A DNA stretch of 21,494 bases from a virus. Shown piece after piece: positions 6,365 through 21,494 of the stretch. The notes beneath the pieces were generated by a model. That model did no database searches. It was not told the origin of the DNA and saw only the letters and a program-made list of their open reading frames with translations. Made by a program: the position numbers and the translations under genes. Location: the IMG/VR virus record IMGVR_UViG_3300031851_005298, positions 1 to 21,494 of that record. One strand, 5' to 3'. How positions within the stretch are numbered: the first letter of the stretch is position 1; every line of letters begins with the position of its first letter.

Positions 6365-6710
6365 AGGCTTTGTCGAAAAAGGCTGGGGCCATGAAAATAT
6401 CTTTGCTACTAACGATAAGTACACAGGGAAATTATTAGTATTTAATGAAGCTGCAAGGTTTTCAATGCATTTTCATGCGCTAAAGGACGAAACATTTTTT
6501 GTTCTTGAAGGAGTCTTTGATTTACTTACTATTGAAACAGAAAGTGCAGACGTTAAAAAACAAAGGTTAAATCCAGGAGATTCGGTAAGAATAAAACCTT
6601 TAACACCACACCAAGTAATCTGCGTTAAAAAAGGAACTATTATAGAAGTTTCTACTCCAGATTCAGTGGAAGATAATTACAGGGTTGCCAAAGGCAATAG
6701 TCAAAAATGA
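6351..6710 (+). CDS. Small cupin-domain protein, probably sugar-related
   Basis: This 119-residue single-domain cupin keeps the metal-binding motif 1, HFHALKDETFFVLEG, with His40, His42 and Glu47, and motif 2, GDSVRIKPLTPHQV, with the fourth ligand His87. Its opening (KGWGHENIFATNDKYTGKLL) resembles the cupin domains of type II phosphomannose isomerases and small sugar isomerases. I chose the ATG at 6351 because AAGGA lies eight bases before it; the TTG at 6336 is less likely. It overlaps the preceding gene by 14 bases and the next by four (ATGA), so it belongs to the same unit. The substrate is not known. Because no GmhA-type phosphoheptose isomerase is visible in the window, an isomerase role in the same pathway is a speculative option. 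Confidence 0.82.
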   Translation: MTQLEGFVEKGWGHENIFATNDKYTGKLLVFNEAARFSMHFHALKDETFFVLEGVFDLLTIETESADVKKQRLNPGDSVRIKPLTPHQVICVKKGTIIEVSTPDSVEDNYRVAKGNSQK

Positions 6711-7612
6711 TAATATGGGGTATGTCAAAGAACGGTCATGATTGGTCTGTAGCTATTTTTAAAGACAATAACTTAGGAAATAGATTTAAACTTGTAAATA
6801 CTATTTCAGGTAAAGGCTCTAGACACACGCCAGAATGTATAGATGAAGCCAAGAAAAACGGCAAACCTGATTTAGTTATCTGGTATGAAAATCCATATCT
6901 TAAATCTATTAGACAATTTATAGCAGGACAAAAACATCCTTTTAAAAGAAATAACATTAAAAGATATTTACGAGATCTTAATATAAACTGTAAATGGAAA
7001 TACGTAGGCCATCATGAATCTCATGCTGCAGCCTTTTACAATAGTGGATTTAAAGATGCCACTATTGTGGTTCTTGATAGTATTGGAGAATTTGATTGTA
7101 CATCTATATGGAAAGCCAAAGACGGCAAACTTAAAAAAATAAAGTCAACTAAATATCCTCATAGCATCGGACTATTCTATTCAGCTATGACAGATCGAAT
7201 CGGATTAAAGCCACAGCAAGATGAAGCTGTATTTGAAAAAATGTCTAGATCATATACACCATTTTCACAATTAGTAGTACAAATGGAAAATGATATAATA
7301 AAACAGTGGGATCCATTACCTAAATTTAGAGTAAACTTTCACCGCGGCGCTAGGCAAATGTGGTGGGACAGCGGTAAAAAGGAAATAGCCAGCGCATCGC
7401 GTACAATTTTTGAGAGTTTAGTAACTAAAGTTTTAATTCATGCAAAAGAAATTACAGATAGCCGCAATATTGTGTTAAGCGGTGGAGTCGCATTTAACAA
7501 ATCTGTACCAAACATTGCAAGCAAAATATTTGATAATATATACATACCACCAAATCCAAGCGATAGTGGTTCAGCAGAGGGCGCAGTATTAGCGTATTTA
7601 AATAATGGTTGA
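6707..7612 (+). CDS. Stand-alone Kae1-like carbamoyltransferase domain (YrdC-like half missing)
   Basis: Full NodU/CmcH/TobZ carbamoyltransferases join an N-terminal Kae1-like domain, which performs the transfer, to a C-terminal YrdC-like domain that makes carbamoyl-adenylate. This 301-residue protein has only the first. It shows GHHESHAAAFYNSGF (metal-ligand histidines about 102-106), VVLDSIGEFD (Asp124), LSGGVAFNKSV (about 258-266) and PPNPSDSGSAEGAV (about 281-294). It stops cleanly after that last motif, with no GPRALGNRS or FRPFA region. The stop sits in an 8-base overlap with the next gene, so this looks like an evolved form rather than a frameshift; I see no YrdC-like remnant downstream. 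It could work with the full-length paralogue at 11200-13020, use carbamoyl-adenylate made elsewhere, or have a different role. The start ATG overlaps the cupin stop (ATGA). Confidence 0.85.
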   Translation: MIIWGMSKNGHDWSVAIFKDNNLGNRFKLVNTISGKGSRHTPECIDEAKKNGKPDLVIWYENPYLKSIRQFIAGQKHPFKRNNIKRYLRDLNINCKWKYVGHHESHAAAFYNSGFKDATIVVLDSIGEFDCTSIWKAKDGKLKKIKSTKYPHSIGLFYSAMTDRIGLKPQQDEAVFEKMSRSYTPFSQLVVQMENDIIKQWDPLPKFRVNFHRGARQMWWDSGKKEIASASRTIFESLVTKVLIHAKEITDSRNIVLSGGVAFNKSVPNIASKIFDNIYIPPNPSDSGSAEGAVLAYLNNG

Positions 7613-8266: not shown

Positions 8267-8920
8267 TTAAGTCGGTATTTCAGGGAAGAGACACTCATCA
8301 ATATACTTTCTCACTGTTAAAGGATCTACGCCCATGCTCTCCATAACTCTCGGAGTGTGTGGGTTTTTCTTTTGGTTTATTGCGTACCAGTTATGCTTAT
8401 CCGTATAGTCGTTGTCAGTGCTAAGACCTATATTGTGAACAAAGTAGTCTAAGTTATTAACAGCAAGATCTAATAGCTCTTGTAGTTCGTCAGGATCTCT
8501 AACGTTTCCGGCTGAAACCATTGATCCACTAAAAATTGCTTTAGCCCAGTCAGGTAGTTCTCTTTTCTTTGATGGAATAAAACTGTGTACATTCTTTTTA
8601 AATTGTGATAATATGTGACTATTAGGATCTATAGGACTAAAGTCGTGAAAGGCTCCAGTGACTTTATTTGGTCCTGCGATAACATCAAATCCAAATATTG
8701 GAGCAGGATCATTTGTATGAGGATACACGCACAAATGCATCATCCAAAGTTTACGATCTTCTCGTGCATCGATAATATCTAAATCGGCTCTTCGCCAAAT
8801 ATCTGGAGACAAATAAGTATCTGCAGGCCAGGGAAAATTGTGAGTATGTTTTGTAGTGGCAAGGCTTTCAACTATTGCTCGCATTCTTTCGCTTGTATCT
8901 ATAAGTTTTTCAAAGACCAT
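8267..8920 (-). CDS. pcyX: Ferredoxin-dependent bilin reductase, PcyX/PcyA-like
   Basis: These enzymes reduce biliverdin IX-alpha using ferredoxin electrons. The 217-residue protein carries the family core: MMHLCVYPHTNDPAPIFGFD, then VIAGPNKVTGAFHDFSP, and a C-terminal YAINQKKNPHTPRVMES with YIDECLFPEIP. His62 and Asp79 are 17 residues apart, exactly as PcyA His88 and Asp105. Asp51 lies near where PcyA has Glu76. The retained His points to the PcyA/PcyX branch rather than PebS, which I recall having Asn there. PcyX, described from uncultured oceanic phages beside heme oxygenase, makes phycoerythrobilin; this call is by lineage and neighbourhood, and the product needs a test. It overlaps the heme oxygenase stop by 11 bases, with TAAGGAG upstream (spacing rather long, about 13 bases). 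No ferredoxin gene is in the window. Confidence 0.87.
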   Translation of the reverse strand: MVFEKLIDTSERMRAIVESLATTKHTHNFPWPADTYLSPDIWRRADLDIIDAREDRKLWMMHLCVYPHTNDPAPIFGFDVIAGPNKVTGAFHDFSPIDPNSHILSQFKKNVHSFIPSKKRELPDWAKAIFSGSMVSAGNVRDPDELQELLDLAVNNLDYFVHNIGLSTDNDYTDKHNWYAINQKKNPHTPRVMESMGVDPLTVRKYIDECLFPEIPT

Positions 8921-9443
8921 ATTCTTTTTCTAACTCCTTAAATAGCGCTGTTGCATATTTAAAAACGCCTTGTGCTTCTTTGTACATATCATCATCTAGC
9001 TTAGATCTAACGTATTCTATAAGGCCTTTTTTATCTTCAAATTTATACATGTTATGTAAACCAAAAGGAATACGTTTTGAAATCATATTGCCTCCATACA
9101 TATCTCCAAAGTGACGAACGTACATATGTGCCCAGCATTGATATTCATCAATGCCTTCTACATAATCGCAATATTCTTTTACAACGGGATATAGTTTAAA
9201 ACTATCATTTACTTCTAACGAACGAAGGTCTTCTACAATTTTATGATGTCTTTTAATATCAGGTATATCTTCTAATATGCCAAGTTTATCTGCCCTTTGC
9301 TCTAACCTAAAATATATCATTTCTTGCTGATATAAATAGTTAGCGTACTGATGCTTAGATATAGCACCTGACATGAGCAGCTTTGCAAACGGGCTTTCTT
9401 CTGCTTCAGTATGTACGTCTTTAACGAGATCACGTAACGCCAT
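8910..9443 (-). CDS. ho1: Heme oxygenase (biliverdin-forming)
   Basis: Heme oxygenase opens the heme ring to give biliverdin IX-alpha, CO and iron. The 177-residue protein has the proximal heme-ligand histidine at His11 in VKDVHTEAEESPF. The distal-helix signature is AHMYVRHFGDMYGGNMISKR, with the flexible GDMYGG (residues 113-118) and the conserved Asp114. It is shorter than cyanobacterial HO1 (about 240 residues), mainly at the C-terminus, as expected for compact phage versions. The start at 9443 has a TGGAG ribosome site in a leader of about 15 bases from the late promoter at 9464-9471. It is followed by an overlapping bilin reductase gene, so the two act in sequence: heme to biliverdin to reduced bilin. 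Iron release from host heme could be a second benefit. Confidence 0.92.
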   Translation of the reverse strand: MALRDLVKDVHTEAEESPFAKLLMSGAISKHQYANYLYQQEMIYFRLEQRADKLGILEDIPDIKRHHKIVEDLRSLEVNDSFKLYPVVKEYCDYVEGIDEYQCWAHMYVRHFGDMYGGNMISKRIPFGLHNMYKFEDKKGLIEYVRSKLDDDMYKEAQGVFKYATALFKELEKEYGL

Positions 9444-10343: not shown

Positions 10344-11203
10344 AAATTTTAGTAACAGGATCAGATGGATTTATTGGGAAAAATCTCGTAAAATCTTTAA
10401 AAAAAGACAATATTGAAGTTATTGAATATCCAGTAATGCTAGATATGCCTGATCTTAATGAGGTCGATAAAGTTGTGCACTTAGGAGCTATATCTAGCAC
10501 TACTGAAAAAAATGTAGGTATGATTATGGATCATAACTATGATTTTAGTTATAAGCTTTTAATGCACTGTATTGACAAACAAGTTGATTTTGCATATGCT
10601 TCTTCAGCATCAGTTTATGGTTCTCCTATAACATTTGATGATGTAACTAGAGAAAGTTTTAACGCGGATGGAACCTCAGGATTTGTAGAAGAACAACATT
10701 GTTCTCCACAAAGCCCTTATGCATGGTCAAAGTATATGTTTGATCGTTTAGTGATAAAAACATTACAATACGATTTACCTATAGAGATTCAAGGATTTAG
10801 ATATTTCAATGTGTATGGTCCTCATGAAGAACATAAGGGTGAACAAGCTAGTGTTATAAGTAAATGGGCAAAAAACAAAGAAATAAAATTATTTACCGGT
10901 AGTGAGAACTTTTATAGAGATATGATTCATGTAAAAGACGTATGCGCAATACATAAAAAGTTTTTTGATATCAAAGAATCTGGAATCTGGAACATTGGTA
11001 CTGGCAATGCTTATAGCTTTCAATTCATAGCAACTCAATTATCAAATTTTACCGATATCGAAATAGAATATATTGATTTTCCAGAACATTTAAAATCACA
11101 ATACCAATGCTTCACTAAGGCCGATACGACCAAATTAATGAAGACATTGGTTAATCATGATTTTATAAGTCCAGTAGATCCAGCACTTTTTATAAAAACT
11201 TAA
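10340..11203 (+). CDS. hldD: ADP-heptose 6-epimerase (HldD/RfaD-like)
   Basis: HldD converts ADP-D-glycero-D-manno-heptose to the L-glycero form used by heptosyltransferases. The 287-residue short-chain dehydrogenase-type protein has the NAD(P)-binding GSDGFIGKN at 7-15, LGAISSTTE (48-56), YASSASVYG, the catalytic Tyr127-x3-Lys131 in PYAWSKYMFDRL, GFRYFNVYGPHEEHKG, TGSENFYRDMIHVKDV and NIGTGNAYSFQFIA. The EGACSSTTE-like and GSENFxRDF-like segments and QYQCFTKADTTKL match HldD rather than general sugar epimerases. E. coli HldD is about 310 residues, so this one is slightly short. AAAGGA lies eight bases before the ATG, which overlaps the kinase stop. The 3' end overlaps the convergent carbamoyltransferase by four bases. 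Confidence 0.9.
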   Translation: MKILVTGSDGFIGKNLVKSLKKDNIEVIEYPVMLDMPDLNEVDKVVHLGAISSTTEKNVGMIMDHNYDFSYKLLMHCIDKQVDFAYASSASVYGSPITFDDVTRESFNADGTSGFVEEQHCSPQSPYAWSKYMFDRLVIKTLQYDLPIEIQGFRYFNVYGPHEEHKGEQASVISKWAKNKEIKLFTGSENFYRDMIHVKDVCAIHKKFFDIKESGIWNIGTGNAYSFQFIATQLSNFTDIEIEYIDFPEHLKSQYQCFTKADTTKLMKTLVNHDFISPVDPALFIKT

Positions 11204-13020
11204 TTTTTTATTGTAATTAGTTTTTCGTATTCTGGTAAAAACATATATTCTATAGCAGAGCTTTTTAATGTACGTATAGCGTCTTCAAAAGTTTCTACTA
11301 ATGGCTCACCGCCTAAATTAAACGAAGTATTAAAAATCATTGGAATTCCAGTTTGCTTTTTAAATTCTTTAATTAAATTATAATAATGGAGATTTTGCTC
11401 CTTATTTACAGTCTGAATTCGGCAGGTTCCATCTACGTGTATAATAGATGGGACCATTTCAGCTACCCCATCTTTACAGTCAACAGCGTACATCATATGA
11501 GGAGTGGACTCCATGCCTCGTAGATCGAACCAATCGTGCACGTCTTCTTCTAGAATAGTTCCAGCAAATGGTCTAAAGTATTCTCTACGTTTTACTGAGT
11601 TTACGTGATCTTTGCCATTAGGATCTCCTGGATTATATAATATACTTCTATTTCCCAACGCCCGCGGCCCGGCCTCTGATCTTCCCTGGAATATTGTAAC
11701 AATATTATTATCTTTTATAAGATTTACTACGTCAGAATATGAAGCATCCTGCGTTTCATATTCTAATATGCCTTTATTATCTTCAACATAGTCTTTAGAA
11801 TAATTATATTGCGGACCTAAATATATCCCGCTGACGTCTTTTTTAGTATTTTCATTAATTAAGCTTTGCGACATATGATAACATAATAGTCCTGCACCGA
11901 TACATGTACCCGCATCGCTCGATATAGGCTCAACATATAGTTTAATTGGAGTATCAATTAAATGTTTTAGATACTCGTAATTTGCCACACAATTTAGTCC
12001 GTATCCTCCAGACAGAACTACGTTTTGTTTTCCAGTTATATCTACTGCCTTTTTAATTAGATTTACTATTTCATTTTGAGTTTCTTGTTGCACCTGATAA
12101 GCGACGTCTCTACGATTTTGTAATTTTGTAAGATCTTTGCTATCTCCACTAAACGCCGCGTACTTATTAGTACTGTGTACATACGTTGCTGAATTCGGAT
12201 ATGTAGGTAAAACTTTACCACGATTTACCAAAGGAACATTTAAACCGTCTAGACATACTTTTTCAAACAAGGGTTCTAAATCGTTATTAGGTTTTCCGTA
12301 TGGAGCCAGCCCCATTGTTTTTCCAGCTTCAATCGAACTAAATCCACAATACTCTGTGACGGCTTCATATGCCTTTGTAATTCCAGCTCTATCCGTGAAT
12401 ACTATATCAAATACGTCATCTCCTAACATATCCGGACCATTAAAGTCTTTTATCATAATCGGTGCTATATTTTCAGCATGGCCGTGGTGTTTCCATTTAT
12501 TAGCAAATGTATATGGATAGCTGCAATCAATAATACTTTCTGTTTCATATGTCATTACTTGCCGAGGCTCACCTCTACCTCCGTCAAACGCCATTGGAGC
12601 AAACGTACCAGCTCCATCGGCAATAACCGCAACCGCATCTTCAAATCCGGATCTGTAAAATGCTGCAGCTGCATGTAACTTATGATGAATCTTAGAATAA
12701 TCTAATACTTGAGGGTGATCATAGATATTTTGTTTTCTATCAATAAGTCCTAATTTTCTAGCCAAACCAGTATATATGTTATCGCCAGTAAAGTCAATTT
12801 TACCTGCTGTTTCAGATACTGGTTGAGTATGGGCTATTACAAGATAGTCAACTTTATCTGTATAGTCTAATACCTTTATCATTCCTGCTAATGGACCGCC
12901 ATCATATTTATGGCGGCTAAGTCTTTCTTCTTCTAGCATGAATACAATTTCGCCGTCTTTTAATAGACATGTGGCACCGTTATGCCCGCGGGCAATTGCT
13001 AAAATATATCCAGTTTCCAT
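11200..13020 (-). CDS. Full-length O-carbamoyltransferase (NodU/CmcH/TobZ family)
   Basis: The family uses carbamoyl phosphate and ATP to carbamoylate hydroxyl groups of sugars or antibiotics. At 606 residues it is complete. The Kae1-like part shows ARGHNGATCLL (10-20), HHKLHAAAAFYRSGF (metal histidines 112, 113, 116), IADGAGTF, LSGGYGLNCVANYEY (337-350) and EPISSDAGTCIGAG (364-377). The YrdC-like part shows GPRALGNRSILYNP (451-464), YFRPFAGTILEED and FNTSFNLGGEPLVETFEDA. AAAAGGA precedes the ATG, which lies one base after the stop of the GT9 gene, so the two are co-translated. The acceptor cannot be read from sequence; beside heptose genes a heptosyl group is the most economical choice. Its paralogue at 6707-7612 has only the first domain. 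Confidence 0.95.
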   Translation of the reverse strand: METGYILAIARGHNGATCLLKDGEIVFMLEEERLSRHKYDGGPLAGMIKVLDYTDKVDYLVIAHTQPVSETAGKIDFTGDNIYTGLARKLGLIDRKQNIYDHPQVLDYSKIHHKLHAAAAFYRSGFEDAVAVIADGAGTFAPMAFDGGRGEPRQVMTYETESIIDCSYPYTFANKWKHHGHAENIAPIMIKDFNGPDMLGDDVFDIVFTDRAGITKAYEAVTEYCGFSSIEAGKTMGLAPYGKPNNDLEPLFEKVCLDGLNVPLVNRGKVLPTYPNSATYVHSTNKYAAFSGDSKDLTKLQNRRDVAYQVQQETQNEIVNLIKKAVDITGKQNVVLSGGYGLNCVANYEYLKHLIDTPIKLYVEPISSDAGTCIGAGLLCYHMSQSLINENTKKDVSGIYLGPQYNYSKDYVEDNKGILEYETQDASYSDVVNLIKDNNIVTIFQGRSEAGPRALGNRSILYNPGDPNGKDHVNSVKRREYFRPFAGTILEEDVHDWFDLRGMESTPHMMYAVDCKDGVAEMVPSIIHVDGTCRIQTVNKEQNLHYYNLIKEFKKQTGIPMIFNTSFNLGGEPLVETFEDAIRTLKSSAIEYMFLPEYEKLITIKN

Positions 13021-14975: not shown

Positions 14976-16226
14976 TTAGGGACAAATAAAGCTAATCCTT
15001 ACAGCTCCACCTCTACCAGCGTCTCCACAGTTACTATTACCACCCATTGTATGAGTCATAGTACCACCCAGACCCGGCATACGTCGCCAACCAGTATTAG
15101 TGTTGTTGCAACATGCTGCGCAACACTTACCATAACAAGTTCCACTTGTCCAACAGAAATTACATCCTACGCAACACGTCCAGTTATAGTTTTCTCCACA
15201 CATAAATGGAACACCTGGTTCAGTAGTATGTCCGTAGTTATTTGTGTCGTAGCAATATCCACCGTAGTGCCCTTGAACTTTGTAAATAATTGCTCTTGGC
15301 GAACAGCCGTAAGCAAACATTCTACTTCCTACATTAGCTATGCATCCGCATGATGCGCAAGAGTTGTCGAAGCAATAGAAGGTTGAACACTGACACCAGC
15401 ATCCACCACCCGAGTTATTGAACTGACACCATGCAACCCCAGCCCTACATGTACACGACATACCGTTATTAAACGCTTGCAGATTTTGAAAGCTGTGTCT
15501 ACCTGGATCAGCACATACTTGGCACATGCCTGGGCCGTTGACCCATGTAGGTCCACCGTTGTTATAATATACATCTGCATTTCCTGGATAACAACAATAT
15601 GCACAACCAGCACAAACCGTATAGGATTCTCCTGCAGTTACAGGAATAGTCGTAGTAAAGAAAGCGCCTGTAGATCCGTATGGAGATCCACCACAACCTG
15701 GTGATGCACCACTAGAATTACCTGGACCCCACCCTGTAAATTGTACCTTTGTAACGCCAGCTGGTACAACAAAATTACAACATGAACCACATCTCCAATA
15801 ACCGTTGCAACAACAGTTTAGTCCAGTATTATTTCCGTTAGATCCAAAAACATTGCCATAGGGTAGTGTGTCATTATCTATAACCCAGATGTGGCACCTT
15901 TCGCTCGGACAGCTGCCGTCTTTATAAGTGTCCGGAATACAGCACCAAGCTTGACAATATGTATTATAACCTCGGTAAGAATCTCTTTCTAAACACTGAT
16001 TTAGCGTAATAAGTCCAGCTAAGCCTGCAGCTGCATTCTCTTTATTATATTGAACACAGCAGTAACAACATTTACAACACTCCAAGCACGTCTTGCACTG
16101 GTTTAGTGTACTTTGTGCCGTTTGGTATTGGTTGTTTGCCCGGTTCGCTTGTTCGGTTGCTGCCGTTAGCTGAGTATCGGCATACAAGTACTTATCTAAT
16201 GCTGCGTAAAATAATACGTCTGCCAT
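14976..16226 (-). CDS. Cysteine-rich, glycine-rich-domain protein (paralogue A), probable virion/adhesin protein
   Basis: The function is not recognised. The 416-residue protein has 51 cysteines (about 12%). The first 40 residues look helical (TAATEQANRANNQYQTAQST) and are followed by a dense cluster at 44-57 with pattern C-x2-C-x2-CC-x-CC-x-CC. A beta-type glycine-rich domain begins at NFVVPAGVTKVQFTGWGPG (about 151-169), as in glycine-rich domains of phage tail fibres, with many CC and CxxC pairs inserted. It ends GGTMTHTMGGNSNCGDAGRGGAVRISF. There is no signal peptide. The ATG has a strong ribosome site (AAGAGGA). The upstream neighbour is 13 bases away, so it is probably co-transcribed from the late promoter at 17149-17156. 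The 415-residue protein at 17163-18410 is its paralogue. A tail-tip or adhesin role is inferred from position beside the long fibre gene. Confidence 0.85.
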   Translation of the reverse strand: MADVLFYAALDKYLYADTQLTAATEQANRANNQYQTAQSTLNQCKTCLECCKCCYCCVQYNKENAAAGLAGLITLNQCLERDSYRGYNTYCQAWCCIPDTYKDGSCPSERCHIWVIDNDTLPYGNVFGSNGNNTGLNCCCNGYWRCGSCCNFVVPAGVTKVQFTGWGPGNSSGASPGCGGSPYGSTGAFFTTTIPVTAGESYTVCAGCAYCCYPGNADVYYNNGGPTWVNGPGMCQVCADPGRHSFQNLQAFNNGMSCTCRAGVAWCQFNNSGGGCWCQCSTFYCFDNSCASCGCIANVGSRMFAYGCSPRAIIYKVQGHYGGYCYDTNNYGHTTEPGVPFMCGENYNWTCCVGCNFCWTSGTCYGKCCAACCNNTNTGWRRMPGLGGTMTHTMGGNSNCGDAGRGGAVRISFICP

Positions 16227-16239
16227 ACTCTAATTCCTC

Positions 16240-17106
16240 TTAATCTGTTATTTCTTTATAGAAGTCTGTATGACTTATTGGCTCAGGTAATTGATACGGA
16301 AGCCTGTCGCGAGGATCGTTAACCGGGCCTGTGCCATTAGTATGCCCATTGGCGGTTATTTCGCCAATTGTTAATCCAGCATCACCAGCATCTTTTACAA
16401 TTTTAATAGCCTGATTTACTGACAATGGTATTTTAGGAACTAGGCTTGTTGACGGATGGGTTGTATACGCCCATGGCCATTTACCTTCTTCACCTGCAAT
16501 AAATGTATCTAGCTTGGCTAAATACGCACCTGCATCAGATTCGCCAGCAGCACCTAAGTCATACGTATCATAATAATGTTGTACGGCCGCTTTACGTGTT
16601 CTCGCAATAAACGCATTGTGCGATTCTGGTGAACGAAGTATCTGTTTAAATTTTATATTATCAAACTTATTGCCATCAGAATCTATATCTTTACTAACTT
16701 CCATCTGAAATACTTGATGTATATTTGGATTTGTTGATACTTGATACTTGACGGATGGGTCGGCGGCTAAAGTCTTTTCTTCAAACACTTCTTCGTGTGG
16801 CATGTCTGTTCGATCTTCGTCATGAAAATTCTGTAGATACCAGCAAGCCATAGCATGTTTATTGCTAGATGATGCTTTTAATCTTATATTTAAAGTAGGT
16901 GATCCATCACCTAGTAAAGCATCACTATTCATATCATGTGCGCCATCGCTATCATAATCAAACGATGTTCCAAAGACTTGACCGTCTGCATTAGCATACA
17001 AGGTGACTTCATCTGGCCCATTGTATGTTGTAGTTAAAGTTTTACCTTCATCCCAAGAGTTTACATATTGCTCATCGGGAATTGGATATGTAATTGTAAT
17101 TGGCAT
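16240..17106 (-). CDS. Unrecognised protein in the fibre region, probably structural
   Basis: I do not recognise this 288-residue protein. It begins MPITITYPIPDEQYVNSWDE and is acidic and soluble, with no signal peptide or membrane segment. It has only one cysteine, in sharp contrast to its two neighbours. The first half looks beta-rich (TLTTTYNGPDEVTLYANADG) with aspartate-rich DYDSDGAHDMNSD and DIDSDGNKFDN segments (about 51-63 and 140-150) that could bind calcium. The middle is helical (IARTRKAAVQHYYDTYDLGA), and the C-terminus is proline-rich (DPRDRLPYQLPEPI). An AGAGGGA ribosome site precedes the ATG, and an exact late promoter lies upstream at 17149-17156. Its placement between two cysteine-rich paralogues and behind a late promoter suggests a virion component or an assembly factor for them. 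Confidence 0.8.
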   Translation of the reverse strand: MPITITYPIPDEQYVNSWDEGKTLTTTYNGPDEVTLYANADGQVFGTSFDYDSDGAHDMNSDALLGDGSPTLNIRLKASSSNKHAMACWYLQNFHDEDRTDMPHEEVFEEKTLAADPSVKYQVSTNPNIHQVFQMEVSKDIDSDGNKFDNIKFKQILRSPESHNAFIARTRKAAVQHYYDTYDLGAAGESDAGAYLAKLDTFIAGEEGKWPWAYTTHPSTSLVPKIPLSVNQAIKIVKDAGDAGLTIGEITANGHTNGTGPVNDPRDRLPYQLPEPISHTDFYKEITD

Positions 17107-17148
17107 TTTATATCCCTCTTAGAGAATTAAGAATTTTATTGTTTAATA

Positions 17149-17156
17149 TATTTATA
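17149..17156 (-). promoter_or_regulatory. T4-type late promoter in the fibre region
   Basis: The minus strand reads TATAAATA, an exact late octamer, in the 56-base gap between the two structural genes. Transcription is predicted to start near 17143, 37 bases before the ATG at 17106, and would cover the 288-residue protein and the cysteine-rich paralogue A. Confidence 0.75.
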
Positions 17157-17162
17157 CTCATT

Positions 17163-18410
17163 TTATATGCAACCCCAGCGTGCGTACACAGCTCCGCCGC
17201 GGCCTATGTCACCGCACCAAGCAGTACCGCCGCCCATTCCGTGGGTACCCATACCGCCTGCACCTGGAGATCGTCTATGGCCACAACAGTTTTGACATTC
17301 CTGTCCACCCCAACATGTTTGCGATGTGTAGCAATAACATTGAACACATGGAAATTTAGGAGTACCTTGAGAACATATATTTCCGTACTGATCTTGGTTA
17401 AACATTCCTTTTGGAAGAATACTTGGTATGCTAAAGCACATGGCTGGAACTGTTACAGCTGACCAACTGCCTGAGTTTATTGCTTCGTAATTTATTCTAC
17501 ATCTAGATAGCTTATATGGAATAGTACACTGACAATACCCATTTTGTCCCAAATGGCTTTCATAACCTCTAGAACCTCTACTGTTGTCATGGCACATCCA
17601 GTAACCTTGTGTACATAAACAGTTACCAGATCCCCAATAACCTTGGCAATAACCCTGTGCTGCAGAACCACAACATGCTTCTCGTTCCTGCATCTCTTGA
17701 TACAAACTAGCGGCTCCGCCCTGAACACATAGACAAATACATACGTTTGAACCAGTTGCTGAAGTACAACCGTACACCATGCTGGCTGAACCCGAATTGG
17801 ATGCTGGATATCCGCCTTCACAACCTTTTGCATAGCAGCATATTGCACATCCTGATATAAGACAAAAGACATCTCCCGGAGCTACACAGAAGACGTTTGA
17901 ATAATAACCTCCTGTAGCTCCATTAGGTGCAAATGCGCAACAAGATCCCCAAGTAGTAGATGCTCCAGGACCCCATAATTCTACTTGCAGTCTATTAGTG
18001 CCTGCTGGAACTGTGAAGGTACACTGAAAACCACATTGGCCATAACAGCAGTTAGTACTAACTCCATCAAGACAAAGACATCCTACAGATGAATATCCAG
18101 GCAAATCGCATACGTTTCTAATATGCTGCCATGAACAAACACAAGATATATCATGTGAATAAAATGCAAAGTTACATTCGCTTAAACCTAGAAGTGAAAG
18201 ATCACCGCCGAAGTTGTCGATATAGTCCTGTGCGCTGTCTATTGCGCTATCATAATTAGCGATCGAATCAACGACTAATTGTATTTGTGCTGGTAAAGTA
18301 CCACACGCAGAATCAGCTGAATCTCGTAATCTACGCTGTGCAGCAATCTGCTCAGATTTCGCGTTGACTGTTTTTATCAGCTGATTATATTGTAAAACGT
18401 TAATTGCCAT
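17163..18410 (-). CDS. Cysteine-rich, glycine-rich-domain protein (paralogue B), probable virion/adhesin protein
   Basis: This 415-residue protein has 43 cysteines (about 10%). It opens with a helical stretch (residues about 5-65, with KTVNAKSEQIAAQRRLRDSA) containing a single cysteine, then changes sharply to a cysteine-rich part from about residue 79. A glycine-rich beta domain starts at CTFTVPAGTNRLQVELWGPG (130-149). It ends GGMGTHGMGGGTAWCGDIGRGGAVYARWGC, closely parallel to paralogue A, so the two arose by duplication. Unlike A it lacks the packed CC cluster near the N-terminus. The ATG follows TAGAGGT and lies 15 bases after the fibre gene stop, so the two are co-transcribed. A fibre-associated tip or adhesin is the likeliest role; the cysteines could form disulfides once outside the cell, or bind metal. 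Function is unknown. Confidence 0.85.
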   Translation of the reverse strand: MAINVLQYNQLIKTVNAKSEQIAAQRRLRDSADSACGTLPAQIQLVVDSIANYDSAIDSAQDYIDNFGGDLSLLGLSECNFAFYSHDISCVCSWQHIRNVCDLPGYSSVGCLCLDGVSTNCCYGQCGFQCTFTVPAGTNRLQVELWGPGASTTWGSCCAFAPNGATGGYYSNVFCVAPGDVFCLISGCAICCYAKGCEGGYPASNSGSASMVYGCTSATGSNVCICLCVQGGAASLYQEMQEREACCGSAAQGYCQGYWGSGNCLCTQGYWMCHDNSRGSRGYESHLGQNGYCQCTIPYKLSRCRINYEAINSGSWSAVTVPAMCFSIPSILPKGMFNQDQYGNICSQGTPKFPCVQCYCYTSQTCWGGQECQNCCGHRRSPGAGGMGTHGMGGGTAWCGDIGRGGAVYARWGCI

Positions 18411-18425
18411 TTTTTACCTCTACCA

Positions 18426-21400
18426 TTATAACACGGTCGTTTGTATTCGTTCTATTGATCCGTCGCTATTATATGTAATTACGACGTTCTTTTCTTCTGT
18501 AAAGCCAAAGCCTAAAACCATTTTTTCTTTGTAAGATTTAATTTCATCAGTATATGAATCATAATCGATGTCAGAAATAGTTATTGGGCCATTTACATAT
18601 CCTAATGCTCTTCTTCCACCAGAGTCTCCACGATCAGAGTCAAGGAATGGATTTCCTGTATTTGCGCCAGTCGCCCAAGTAGTATTAGCAGAGTCGTAAT
18701 TTCCAGCACCTATAGCATCAACCAAAGAATTAAGTGCTTCATCTACATAACCTTTAGTTGCTTTCTCCGTTGGAACAGCAAGGTTTGAGTTACCAGATAA
18801 CGTTGCATCTGATGAGAACTCGTTAATTGATTCACCAATTTGTGCACCAATTGAACCAAGTCTCAATGATGTCAAACCAGAAAGATCAAATGCAGATGCA
18901 TCCAATGTTGCTCGTCCAGTAGCCTGATCGATTCGGAAATAGTTACCAACTCTAAAGTTACCATCTTGGTCAGTCGAGATAAAGTAAACTCGACCAGGAG
19001 CAGTCTCAACAACTTCATTTCCTTGAGAAGCAGCTTGCGTTGGAGTTCCAGGATAATTTGTTGTGGTTACTCCACCAGTACCAACGCTCAAGAAGTCGTG
19101 ACCCGTAAGTCTTACCTGAGAATAATTAGTTCGTATGGTAGCAGCTACGTCATCAGCAGAAGCATTTGTTTCTAGTTTTTGTTGTGACAGCGTTATAGTA
19201 GCATCGCCACCTCCGTAGCCAGACACACTAGATATAACATAGGCTCTTGCGTACCCTGCACTATCAGCATCACCCGCAAACGATATCGAAGCACCGGGTT
19301 TTGGCTCTCCAGTTAAAGTATCAACTGTCACGATATAACCGTATTGGCCTCGGTAGAAGTTTGAGTTAGCAAGACTTGCATTTACTGCGCCTTGGCTAAT
19401 AAGCTCACCGCCGGAAAATCCTGGGAAAGTAATATTTTCTACGTAGATTTTATCTTCGGATGGTTGCGAATTAATGACGTCAGCCGTAGGAGCTTCAGCG
19501 TTCCAATGAGCAGAGTCAAAGTAATCACCTGAGTCCATCAGTCTAGCTTGACCACCAGAAGTATAAACGCTATATGATTGAGCATCGATAAACGGAGGAT
19601 TAACAATGTTGATTGTACCCCTCATTTGAGTTCCGTTTGCCGCACTATCCCAATGGTAATAAAGCGTAGACGGAGTTGTAGGTCCAACTTCAAAGAGTAG
19701 TCCGTCTACTGTACTATCTAGAGTAGAATCACCATCAAGGCTGTTTCTACTATTTAAAATTCCAGTTGTGTATTCATCTGTAAAGTTACTTGAATCCCAA
19801 TTAGTTCCAGTAGCAATGTAGAACCGGCCGCCTTGAAGAGCAGTGCCATCACCTATGAACCGGTAACGAGAACCTCTGTAAAGAGTTATATCTGGTTGGT
19901 TGGTTGAAGGTACAGCTACCCCACCAATATTTCCTCCAGCTGTGAAGGTGGTTGTGTTAGTAGCGCCATCGTTGCCTACTGTAATCTTTTCATTTTCTGC
20001 TATTCTTGCAAAAAGAGTAGATGCAGATGTAGCAGCTCCACTATCAAACGTGACCCAACGGTTATTCATTTGAGTCATACCACCAACACTTTGTATATAG
20101 TGAGGAGCATATGAATCAGCGTTTGCCGCAGTCGTAACAGTTAATCTTACTGGGTTTTGACGAGCAATATCTGTAATTGTTGTACTAACAGTGTTTCTAC
20201 CGCCAGCATTTTGCGTATCAATACCAGTAGATCTTGCTGAGTCGATATAAGGTATAAAGTTAGAAGAGTCTGTAGCCGTAACCCAATAACTATCAGCCGT
20301 AAACAATGACGCCCATGTTGAAGGTGTCAAACCTGTAATAGATATTTTTTGACCAGTTGTTAGGCCGTGATTGGGAGAATGGAAGGAAACGTTAGCAGCA
20401 CGAGTCGCTCTATCTATTTTTTCATTGCTTGTCTCACCAACAATCTTCGATCCTACAGAGAATTCAGTACCACCAGTTATTGTATTACCGTCGTAATGAA
20501 GTGAAGTACCTCTAATTTTACCTGTAATTGCAACTTCGTTGGAATCAAATCCTTCAGCAACCGCGCCGTAAGTACCATAAGAGTTATTACAGTTAAGAGC
20601 TCTAATCTTACCACCGCTAGATGTTACAAGGCCAAAATCGCAATAATATGTAAAGCAAGAAACGATTTCAGATTTACCATTTTTGCGAACATGGAAACCA
20701 GCGCCACCGTTATGTACTTGCGTAAATGTGTGGAAAACCATAGAACCTTGGTTTGCTGGATTACTATTAAGTCCGCCATCGATAATAGCTCCAACACCAC
20801 CGGTTGAGAATGCTGTTGATTCTTTAATATATGGAGATTTTAGAATAACTGCAGTTGGGTCAAGTCTAAAGTAAACTCCACCAATTGTAGCGTCTTCAAT
20901 ATCGTGAGGATTAGCCGAATCTAGCGCAAAGCCAGTAAGTCCTGTAAATTTAAGTTCTTCAACAAGAACTCCACTATTTACAAAGAACATAGTTTTGTTT
21001 GAGTCACCAGCGGCTGGATGAATTTCGGTGTTCCTTTGACCATCACCCTTAAGTGTAATGTTAGCAGGAATTGTCATAGGTAAGTTTTCGCGATATTTAC
21101 CATCTTTAATAAAGATAGTAGCTGGACCAGTCACATTTTCTAATGCGAATTTTAAAGATCCCCAAGCTGTATCGACTGTTTGACCTAAATCAGAATCTGC
21201 GTTACCGTTTTCAGCAACATAGTAAACTTTATCAGCTTTACCAGGATATTGCCAGCTATAAGCAACACCATCTGTAGATCCTAAAAATTTACCTTTATCG
21301 CTTGTTGCAAGAGAAGGAAGAACCGAACCGCCACCAGCAGCGAGTAATTCCCATTTACCAGCTGTTAGTTCGTTACCAAAGTTTCCAGAGGCAGCAAAAT

Positions 21401-21494
21401 CCTGAAGAGCTATATAAGAACTAGTACTATATTGTACAACATCGTTAATTAAATAATTAGTACTGCTATCATATCCGCCAGCTCTATAGTTTAG
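18426..21494 (-). CDS. Long fibre-like virion protein with beta-helix segment (5' end off the window)
   Basis: The frame is open from the right edge (1022 codons plus stop), so the GTG at 21134 is not the true start. Residues near the edge read YDSSTNYLINDVVQYSTSSY, which resembles a small carbohydrate-binding module. The VYYVAENGNADSDLGQTVDT and AWGSLKFALENV segment leads into GPATIFIKDGKYRENLPMTI and PANITLKGDGQRNTEIHPAA. That is the start of a right-handed beta-helix of the kind seen in large structural proteins of T4-like cyanophages and in pectate-lyase-like tailspikes. The middle has repeated beta-type modules. Near the C-terminus, VPTEKATKGYVDEAL matches a motif common in tail fibres before the distal tip. 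It is the most upstream visible gene of the minus-strand virion block. A receptor-binding or baseplate-attached fibre is likely; no catalytic residues can be assigned. Confidence 0.82.
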   Translation of the reverse strand, partial: LNYRAGGYDSSTNYLINDVVQYSTSSYIALQDFAASGNFGNELTAGKWELLAAGGGSVLPSLATSDKGKFLGSTDGVAYSWQYPGKADKVYYVAENGNADSDLGQTVDTAWGSLKFALENVTGPATIFIKDGKYRENLPMTIPANITLKGDGQRNTEIHPAAGDSNKTMFFVNSGVLVEELKFTGLTGFALDSANPHDIEDATIGGVYFRLDPTAVILKSPYIKESTAFSTGGVGAIIDGGLNSNPANQGSMVFHTFTQVHNGGAGFHVRKNGKSEIVSCFTYYCDFGLVTSSGGKIRALNCNNSYGTYGAVAEGFDSNEVAITGKIRGTSLHYDGNTITGGTEFSVGSKIVGETSNEKIDRATRAANVSFHSPNHGLTTGQKISITGLTPSTWASLFTADSYWVTATDSSNFIPYIDSARSTGIDTQNAGGRNTVSTTITDIARQNPVRLTVTTAANADSYAPHYIQSVGGMTQMNNRWVTFDSGAATSASTLFARIAENEKITVGNDGATNTTTFTAGGNIGGVAVPSTNQPDITLYRGSRYRFIGDGTALQGGRFYIATGTNWDSSNFTDEYTTGILNSRNSLDGDSTLDSTVDGLLFEVGPTTPSTLYYHWDSAANGTQMRGTINIVNPPFIDAQSYSVYTSGGQARLMDSGDYFDSAHWNAEAPTADVINSQPSEDKIYVENITFPGFSGGELISQGAVNASLANSNFYRGQYGYIVTVDTLTGEPKPGASISFAGDADSAGYARAYVISSVSGYGGGDATITLSQQKLETNASADDVAATIRTNYSQVRLTGHDFLSVGTGGVTTTNYPGTPTQAASQGNEVVETAPGRVYFISTDQDGNFRVGNYFRIDQATGRATLDASAFDLSGLTSLRLGSIGAQIGESINEFSSDATLSGNSNLAVPTEKATKGYVDEALNSLVDAIGAGNYDSANTTWATGANTGNPFLDSDRGDSGGRRALGYVNGPITISDIDYDSYTDEIKSYKEKMVLGFGFTEEKNVVITYNSDGSIERIQTTVL

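Follow-up and report, generated by a model that had tools for sequence, protein, structure and literature searches.

Twin cysteine-rich proteins as probable receptor-binding tail-fibre tips of a T4-like marine phage

The window analysed here is the whole 21,494-nucleotide stretch of viral DNA of the IMG/VR record IMGVR_UViG_3300031851_005298 (positions 1 to 21,494), in which two genes, separated by a third one, code for paralogous proteins of extreme cysteine content. These twins, hereafter proteins A and B, are probably duplicated receptor-binding tail-fibre tips of a T4-like marine phage, assembled with the product of the intervening gene (the middle protein) as chaperone and stiffened by disulfides after lysis. 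A sequence-only reading of this DNA had called paralogues of 416 and 415 residues with 51 and 43 cysteines at 14976-18410. The open reading frames (ORFs) were found to be exact, and the proteins are real, divergent paralogues (36% identity across residues 132-413, E 9.5e-12). The three genes are the following:

17163..18410, minus strand: probable cysteine-rich fibre-tip protein A, 415 amino acids, 43 Cys (10.4%); PHROG 35878, E 4.8e-20
14976..16226, minus strand: probable cysteine-rich fibre-tip protein B, 416 amino acids, 51 Cys (12.3%); AlphaFold (AF2) model, best PDB match the Pam3 fibre
16240..17106, minus strand: middle protein, probable tail-fibre assembly chaperone, 288 amino acids, 1 Cys; phrog_9740, E 1.1e-8

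The earlier description of the twins as duplicated, glycine-rich, fibre-type proteins is supported. The chaperone-like gene between them and the conserved module to which they belong were absent from that reading, which overall is partly supported.

Predicted fold of the twins and of the middle protein

Single-protein Pfam and PDB sequence searches with the twins and their relatives gave no useful match. The AF2 model of protein B, built with a 107-sequence alignment, has a mean predicted local distance difference test score (pLDDT) of 78, most of residues 150-340 lying at 77-97 by ten-residue block, and starts with a 42-residue N-terminal helix. The structure search with this model revealed the Pam3 fibre as the best PDB match (Foldseek E 2.1e-5; Z 11.9 with an rmsd of 3.8 over 188 residues), followed by the Bxb1 tail tip at Z 11.5 and by ALK/LTK, whose glycine-rich domain scored Z about 7-10; all further rows stayed at Z 4.8 or less, with unrelated ones at about 3.5. 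Among the viral models of BFVD, the matches were mostly phage glycine-rich and tail proteins. The 'Gp38' of Syn9, also present among them, was not taken as evidence of a T4 gp38 homologue, as Syn9 appears to number its ORFs in that way. By homology to protein B, protein A is composed of an N-terminal segment followed by a domain of the TNF-like/glycine-rich type.

The Pam3 fibre is trimeric and presents a helical N-terminus, a TNF-like domain, a glycine-rich tip of stacked loops (about 5 Å) and a variable receptor-binding end; this fibre, gp24, needs the chaperone gp25, made of an N-terminal beta and a C-terminal helical domain (PMC9608196). The window genes resemble the gp24/gp25 pair (PDB 7YPX) by the predicted helical N-terminus and TNF-like plus glycine-rich tip and by the adjacent gene for a probable beta-plus-helical chaperone. 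They differ in that the Pam3 tip domain contains 39% glycine and cysteine is unmentioned in its description (PMC9608196), whereas the twins contain 13% glycine overall and 10-12% cysteine, and in that Pam3 has one fibre per chaperone whereas the cysteine-rich family has two or three tips per chaperone-like gene. The glycine-rich family Gly_rich_2 (PF21722) is matched by 21 of the 107 family members (E up to 1, best 1.5e-5), the homologue of S-SSM7 passing the curated cut-off (24.9 vs 24.3 bits), and neither of the twins matches it. On the basis of the model, the cysteine-rich domain is grouped with the TNF-like plus glycine-rich fibre tips, and its low glycine content makes it a cysteine variant and not a plain member.

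Two other systems are comparable. The glycine-rich (TG) domain of ALK/LTK shares the TNF-like plus glycine-rich fold, and one family member weakly matches PF12810; it belongs to an animal receptor ectodomain and no shared function is implied. In Salmonella phage S16, the gp38 gene sits just after the distal long-fibre gene, like the twins, and we know of no cysteine-rich version of this protein. The tip of the S16 gp38 distal adhesin (PDB 6F45) is built on glycine-rich lines, a comparison made with Pam3 in PMC9608196; this adhesin did not occur in our fold-search lists.

The middle protein of the window has no direct Pfam match. Its phrog_9740 homologues of S-SSM7 and Sf-FS3 match Phage_tail_APC (PF16778) by their C-terminal helical part (E 1.1e-9 and 5.3e-11, respectively), and that of S-SSM7 also matches phrog_4912, annotated as tail fibre assembly (E 1.9e-11). 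In its AF2 model (mean pLDDT 79), strands are found within residues 2-155, forming an N-terminal beta part, and helices within residues 163-244, forming a C-terminal hairpin; the fold search with this model gave no confident match, the top rows being generic helical hairpins. Because the homologues match Phage_tail_APC and the beta/helical layout is that of Pam3 gp25, the middle protein is probably a fibre assembly chaperone.

A conserved module with a fixed cysteine core

Protein B alone, used as a back-translated query, gave no match; the alignment-based search succeeded, and profile searching of the viral contigs of IMG/VR yielded 126 related stretches, from which 72 distinct loci were fetched. 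The 150 cysteine-rich family ORFs at fetched loci contain 6.1-12.5% cysteine (median 9.4%). The extreme cysteine noted by the sequence-only reading is confirmed by comparison with the 468 non-family ORFs of at least 150 amino acids at the same loci, for which the median is 1.0% and the 99th percentile 3.4%. Since these neighbours are so poor in cysteine and the middle protein has a single one in 288 residues, the high content of the twins does not result from base composition or chance.

The order of the module is long fibre, cysteine-rich A, middle protein, cysteine-rich B, glycosyltransferase and carbamoyltransferase. The survey of related phages for the same pair, proposed with the sequence-only reading, showed at nearly all loci two cysteine-rich genes flanking a gene of 209-288 amino acids with 0-3 cysteines. 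S-SSM7, S-CAM1, S-CAM3 and Sf-FS3 differ by having three shorter cysteine-rich genes, the relative of the middle gene coming after the third. Of 81 loci fetched, some overlapping, 79 have a member of the middle-protein family, between the cysteine-rich genes or directly after them. Among 75 loci, the fetched stretch includes a long-fibre relative in 64 cases, a protein like glycosyltransferase family 9 (GT9) in 71 and the carbamoyltransferase in 68. At one locus (L043:5782-7901), the cysteine-rich genes are 36 bases apart with no middle gene between them, and the second copy is very divergent. In the tree, A copies group with A and B copies with B (7-8 changes vs about 40 in shuffles), which indicates an old duplication with retention of both copies. 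The other members of the module in the window are:

18426..21494, minus strand: long tail-fibre protein, upstream, open at the window end; 0.3% Cys in 1022 amino acids
13022..13930, minus strand: conserved downstream protein with a weak glycosyltransferase family 9 match; T4-GC 302 / phrog_8954
11200..13020, minus strand: Nol-like carbamoyltransferase, conserved downstream; T4-GC 303

The GT9-like protein and the Nol-like carbamoyltransferase accompany the cysteine-rich module almost as faithfully as the chaperone-like gene does, and might modify the fibre tips or a host surface sugar. The window contains two carbamoyltransferase-like ORFs inside a sugar-nucleotide gene cluster, that at 11200-13020 (606 amino acids) and a second one at 6707-7612 (301 amino acids), the latter called by eye only.

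Among cultured phages, the cysteine-rich family is carried by P-SSM2/P-SSM5, S-SSM7, S-SSM6a, Sf-FS3, S-CAM1 and S-CAM3. The genes PSSM2_304-306 of P-SSM2 and SSSM7_114-118 of S-SSM7 belong to the same families (PHROGs 35878, 4205 and 9740) in a similar order, with 10-11.5% cysteine in their cysteine-rich members; in the deposited records their products are hypothetical proteins with no function assigned. PHROGs 35878 and 4205, which hold the cysteine-rich members, are likewise annotated 'unknown function', and no description of cysteine-rich fibre tips was found in the open-access literature searched. The family is widespread, conserved and apparently undescribed. One pattern scan of bacterial genomes gave no relative, the pattern being too narrow to establish a true absence. 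The IMG/VR contig 3300046171_000193 (locus L004; 151,681 bases), which carries the closest relatives of the twins, has no match to a photosystem reaction-centre gene of the psbA/psbD type, whereas a 250-kb carrier (L017) has several; the range of the family may thus be wider than the cyanophages.

Proteins A and B are 73% and 67% identical (blastp) to their L004 counterparts, with dN/dS ratios of 0.17 and 0.12, respectively. The twin genes are under purifying selection and behave as real genes. Of the cysteine-bearing positions, 42 of 45 in A and 45 of 53 in B retain cysteine, as compared with 70% and 67% for the other residues. Between very close relatives within the family, dN/dS rises up to 0.67, yet 36 of 37 cysteines are unchanged; such retention of cysteines in a fast-changing remainder agrees with a scaffold that stays rigid while its contact surfaces evolve.

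The alignment of 119 non-redundant divergent proteins revealed 72 columns conserved at 70% or more, among which 29 are glycine and 15 cysteine, and 11 cysteine columns are invariant among 8 representatives. About 15 core cysteines are fixed and the outer positions vary. The earlier statement that cysteine positions differ between the conserved ends of the twins therefore holds for the outer set and fails for these 15 or so columns (at least 70% Cys). Homologues devoid of conserved cysteines had been named as what would speak against the sequence-only reading; the family recovered here withstood this test. Deep members of the family have the motif WGGGGGG with CCC shortly after it, placing the cysteines within a glycine-rich frame. 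At L057:10849-11889, on the minus strand and opposite in orientation, a third and very divergent protein with 10% cysteine has kept GGGG runs and seems to stand midway between glycine-rich and cysteine-rich tips.

Possible roles of the cysteines

In the fibre-tip reading, each twin would consist of an N-terminal helical segment for attachment or trimerisation and of a Pam3-like TNF-like plus glycine-rich-type domain in which many scaffold positions are occupied by cysteine. The chains would fold in the reducing host cytoplasm, probably with the help of the middle protein acting as their assembly chaperone. After lysis, oxygenated seawater would oxidise neighbouring cysteines into disulfides that pin extended loops to their neighbours; the resulting stiff scaffold would bear receptor-contact loops that evolve fast. 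Some cysteines may stay unbonded. The two copies may provide two virion specificities or form one composite tip. The spacing of about 5 Å between the stacked loops of the Pam3 tip lies within disulfide range.

Disulfide stiffening after release, one of the options raised by the sequence-only reading, is the leading idea because some cysteine pairs co-vary and because the predicted fold matches receptor-binding fibre tips. In a simple parsimony-Poisson count of changes on the tree, the column pairs 235-308, 146-211 and 397-399 are gained or lost together (Bonferroni <0.05), whereas none of 23,453 control pairs of 15 other residue types fell below p 1e-4. This is the pattern that disulfides would leave.

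Several observations weigh against the fibre-tip and disulfide reading. The twins do not have the glycine-dominated tip of Pam3. Columns 397 and 399 are two residues apart and their co-change may be an alignment effect. Cysteine totals are even in 57 proteins and odd in 56; this suggests that not every cysteine is paired, and the proposal that all cysteines form intramolecular disulfides was rejected on account of these odd counts. DsbA was absent from nine phage records in a search whose control worked; the search for an Erv1 thiol oxidase was one in which the control itself gave no match, and glutaredoxin genes are not specific, as they occur equally in Syn9, where no family relative was detected. 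Finally, no published virion proteomics of phages carrying the family was found in the open-access literature; the S-SM1 virion proteome (PMC3037559) and the data that it cites for Syn9 and S-PM2 come from phages outside the family-bearing records found.

In these phages, cysteine cross-links (or metal sites) may do the work that plain glycine does in related fibre tips. We propose more tentatively, and as the less probable case, a redox-locked adhesin: its tips would stay soft as long as they are reduced inside the host, and a dense network of disulfides (or metal) would lock them only after lysis, making the phage competent to adsorb once it has left the cell.

Alternatively, clusters of cysteines in the tips could bind zinc, copper or iron, with a structural role or as a means of bringing scarce metal to the host or taking it away. 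This seems unlikely to us, although CC and CxxC motifs exceed their numbers in shuffled sequence (802 vs 507 and 607 vs 414), four cysteines (146, 208, 211 and 212) are conserved and correlated, odd totals are compatible with metal sites, and protein B contains the following run, a similar one being present in its L004 copy:

16053..16097, minus strand: CKTCLECCKCCYCC, a cysteine run resembling metallothionein; falls inside residues 44-58 of protein B, where the confidence of the model is low

No known metal-site family was matched, and the strongest tree-aware signals are pairs and not quartets. A phage fibre holding metal has been proposed for T4 gp37 and Alteromonas phage R22Y, the iron-binding tips of which rely on histidine in HxH motifs (PMC11705849); neither twin contains HxH. 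The metal binding at the tail tip suggested by the sequence-only reading is weakly supported, although metal could be held by cysteine itself. Its further idea that iron for such sites could be released by the phage heme oxygenase is unsupported: S-CAM1, S-CAM3 and Sf-FS3, the genomes of which are complete, have the family but lack this enzyme. Heme oxygenase occurs in 8 of 21 records and is also absent from the 250-kb L017 contig; it was rejected as a general partner and is not a required supplier. In five contigs, its gene is no more than about 7 kb away from the cysteine-rich pair. In the window, the genes concerned overlap by 11 bases:

8267-9443: heme oxygenase next to ferredoxin-dependent bilin reductase; Pfam PF01126 and PF05996

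It is less probable still that the twins are intracellular cysteine-rich proteins, such as redox buffers or metal traps, merely located within a tail cluster. In favour of this, no member was found in the published virion proteomes consulted, those of S-SM1, Syn9 and S-PM2, phages outside the family-bearing records found; the predicted fibre-tip fold, the tail-fibre-assembly relative in the same module, the frequent long-fibre relative nearby and the dN/dS of up to 0.67 between close relatives all argue for a virion protein. Covalent exchange of free tip thiols with thiols or disulfides of the host surface, leading to irreversible adsorption, is the least probable reading. In its favour, about half of the proteins should have one or more unpaired thiols, given their odd totals, and the outer cysteines are variable; against it, the best conserved cysteines lie within conserved scaffold blocks and no host receptor is known.

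The range of marine bacteria that a phage can infect depends on its fibre tips. With the fibre-tip reading, a family of T4-like marine phages annotated as unknown, cultured cyanophages included, gains a likely function as a receptor-binding tip with its chaperone. The density of cysteine in a product of the reducing cytoplasm raises the question of whether oxidation at release is a maturation step or whether the thiols bind metal. If true, the redox-locked tip would be a widespread marine solution in which a cysteine lattice takes the place of polyglycine.

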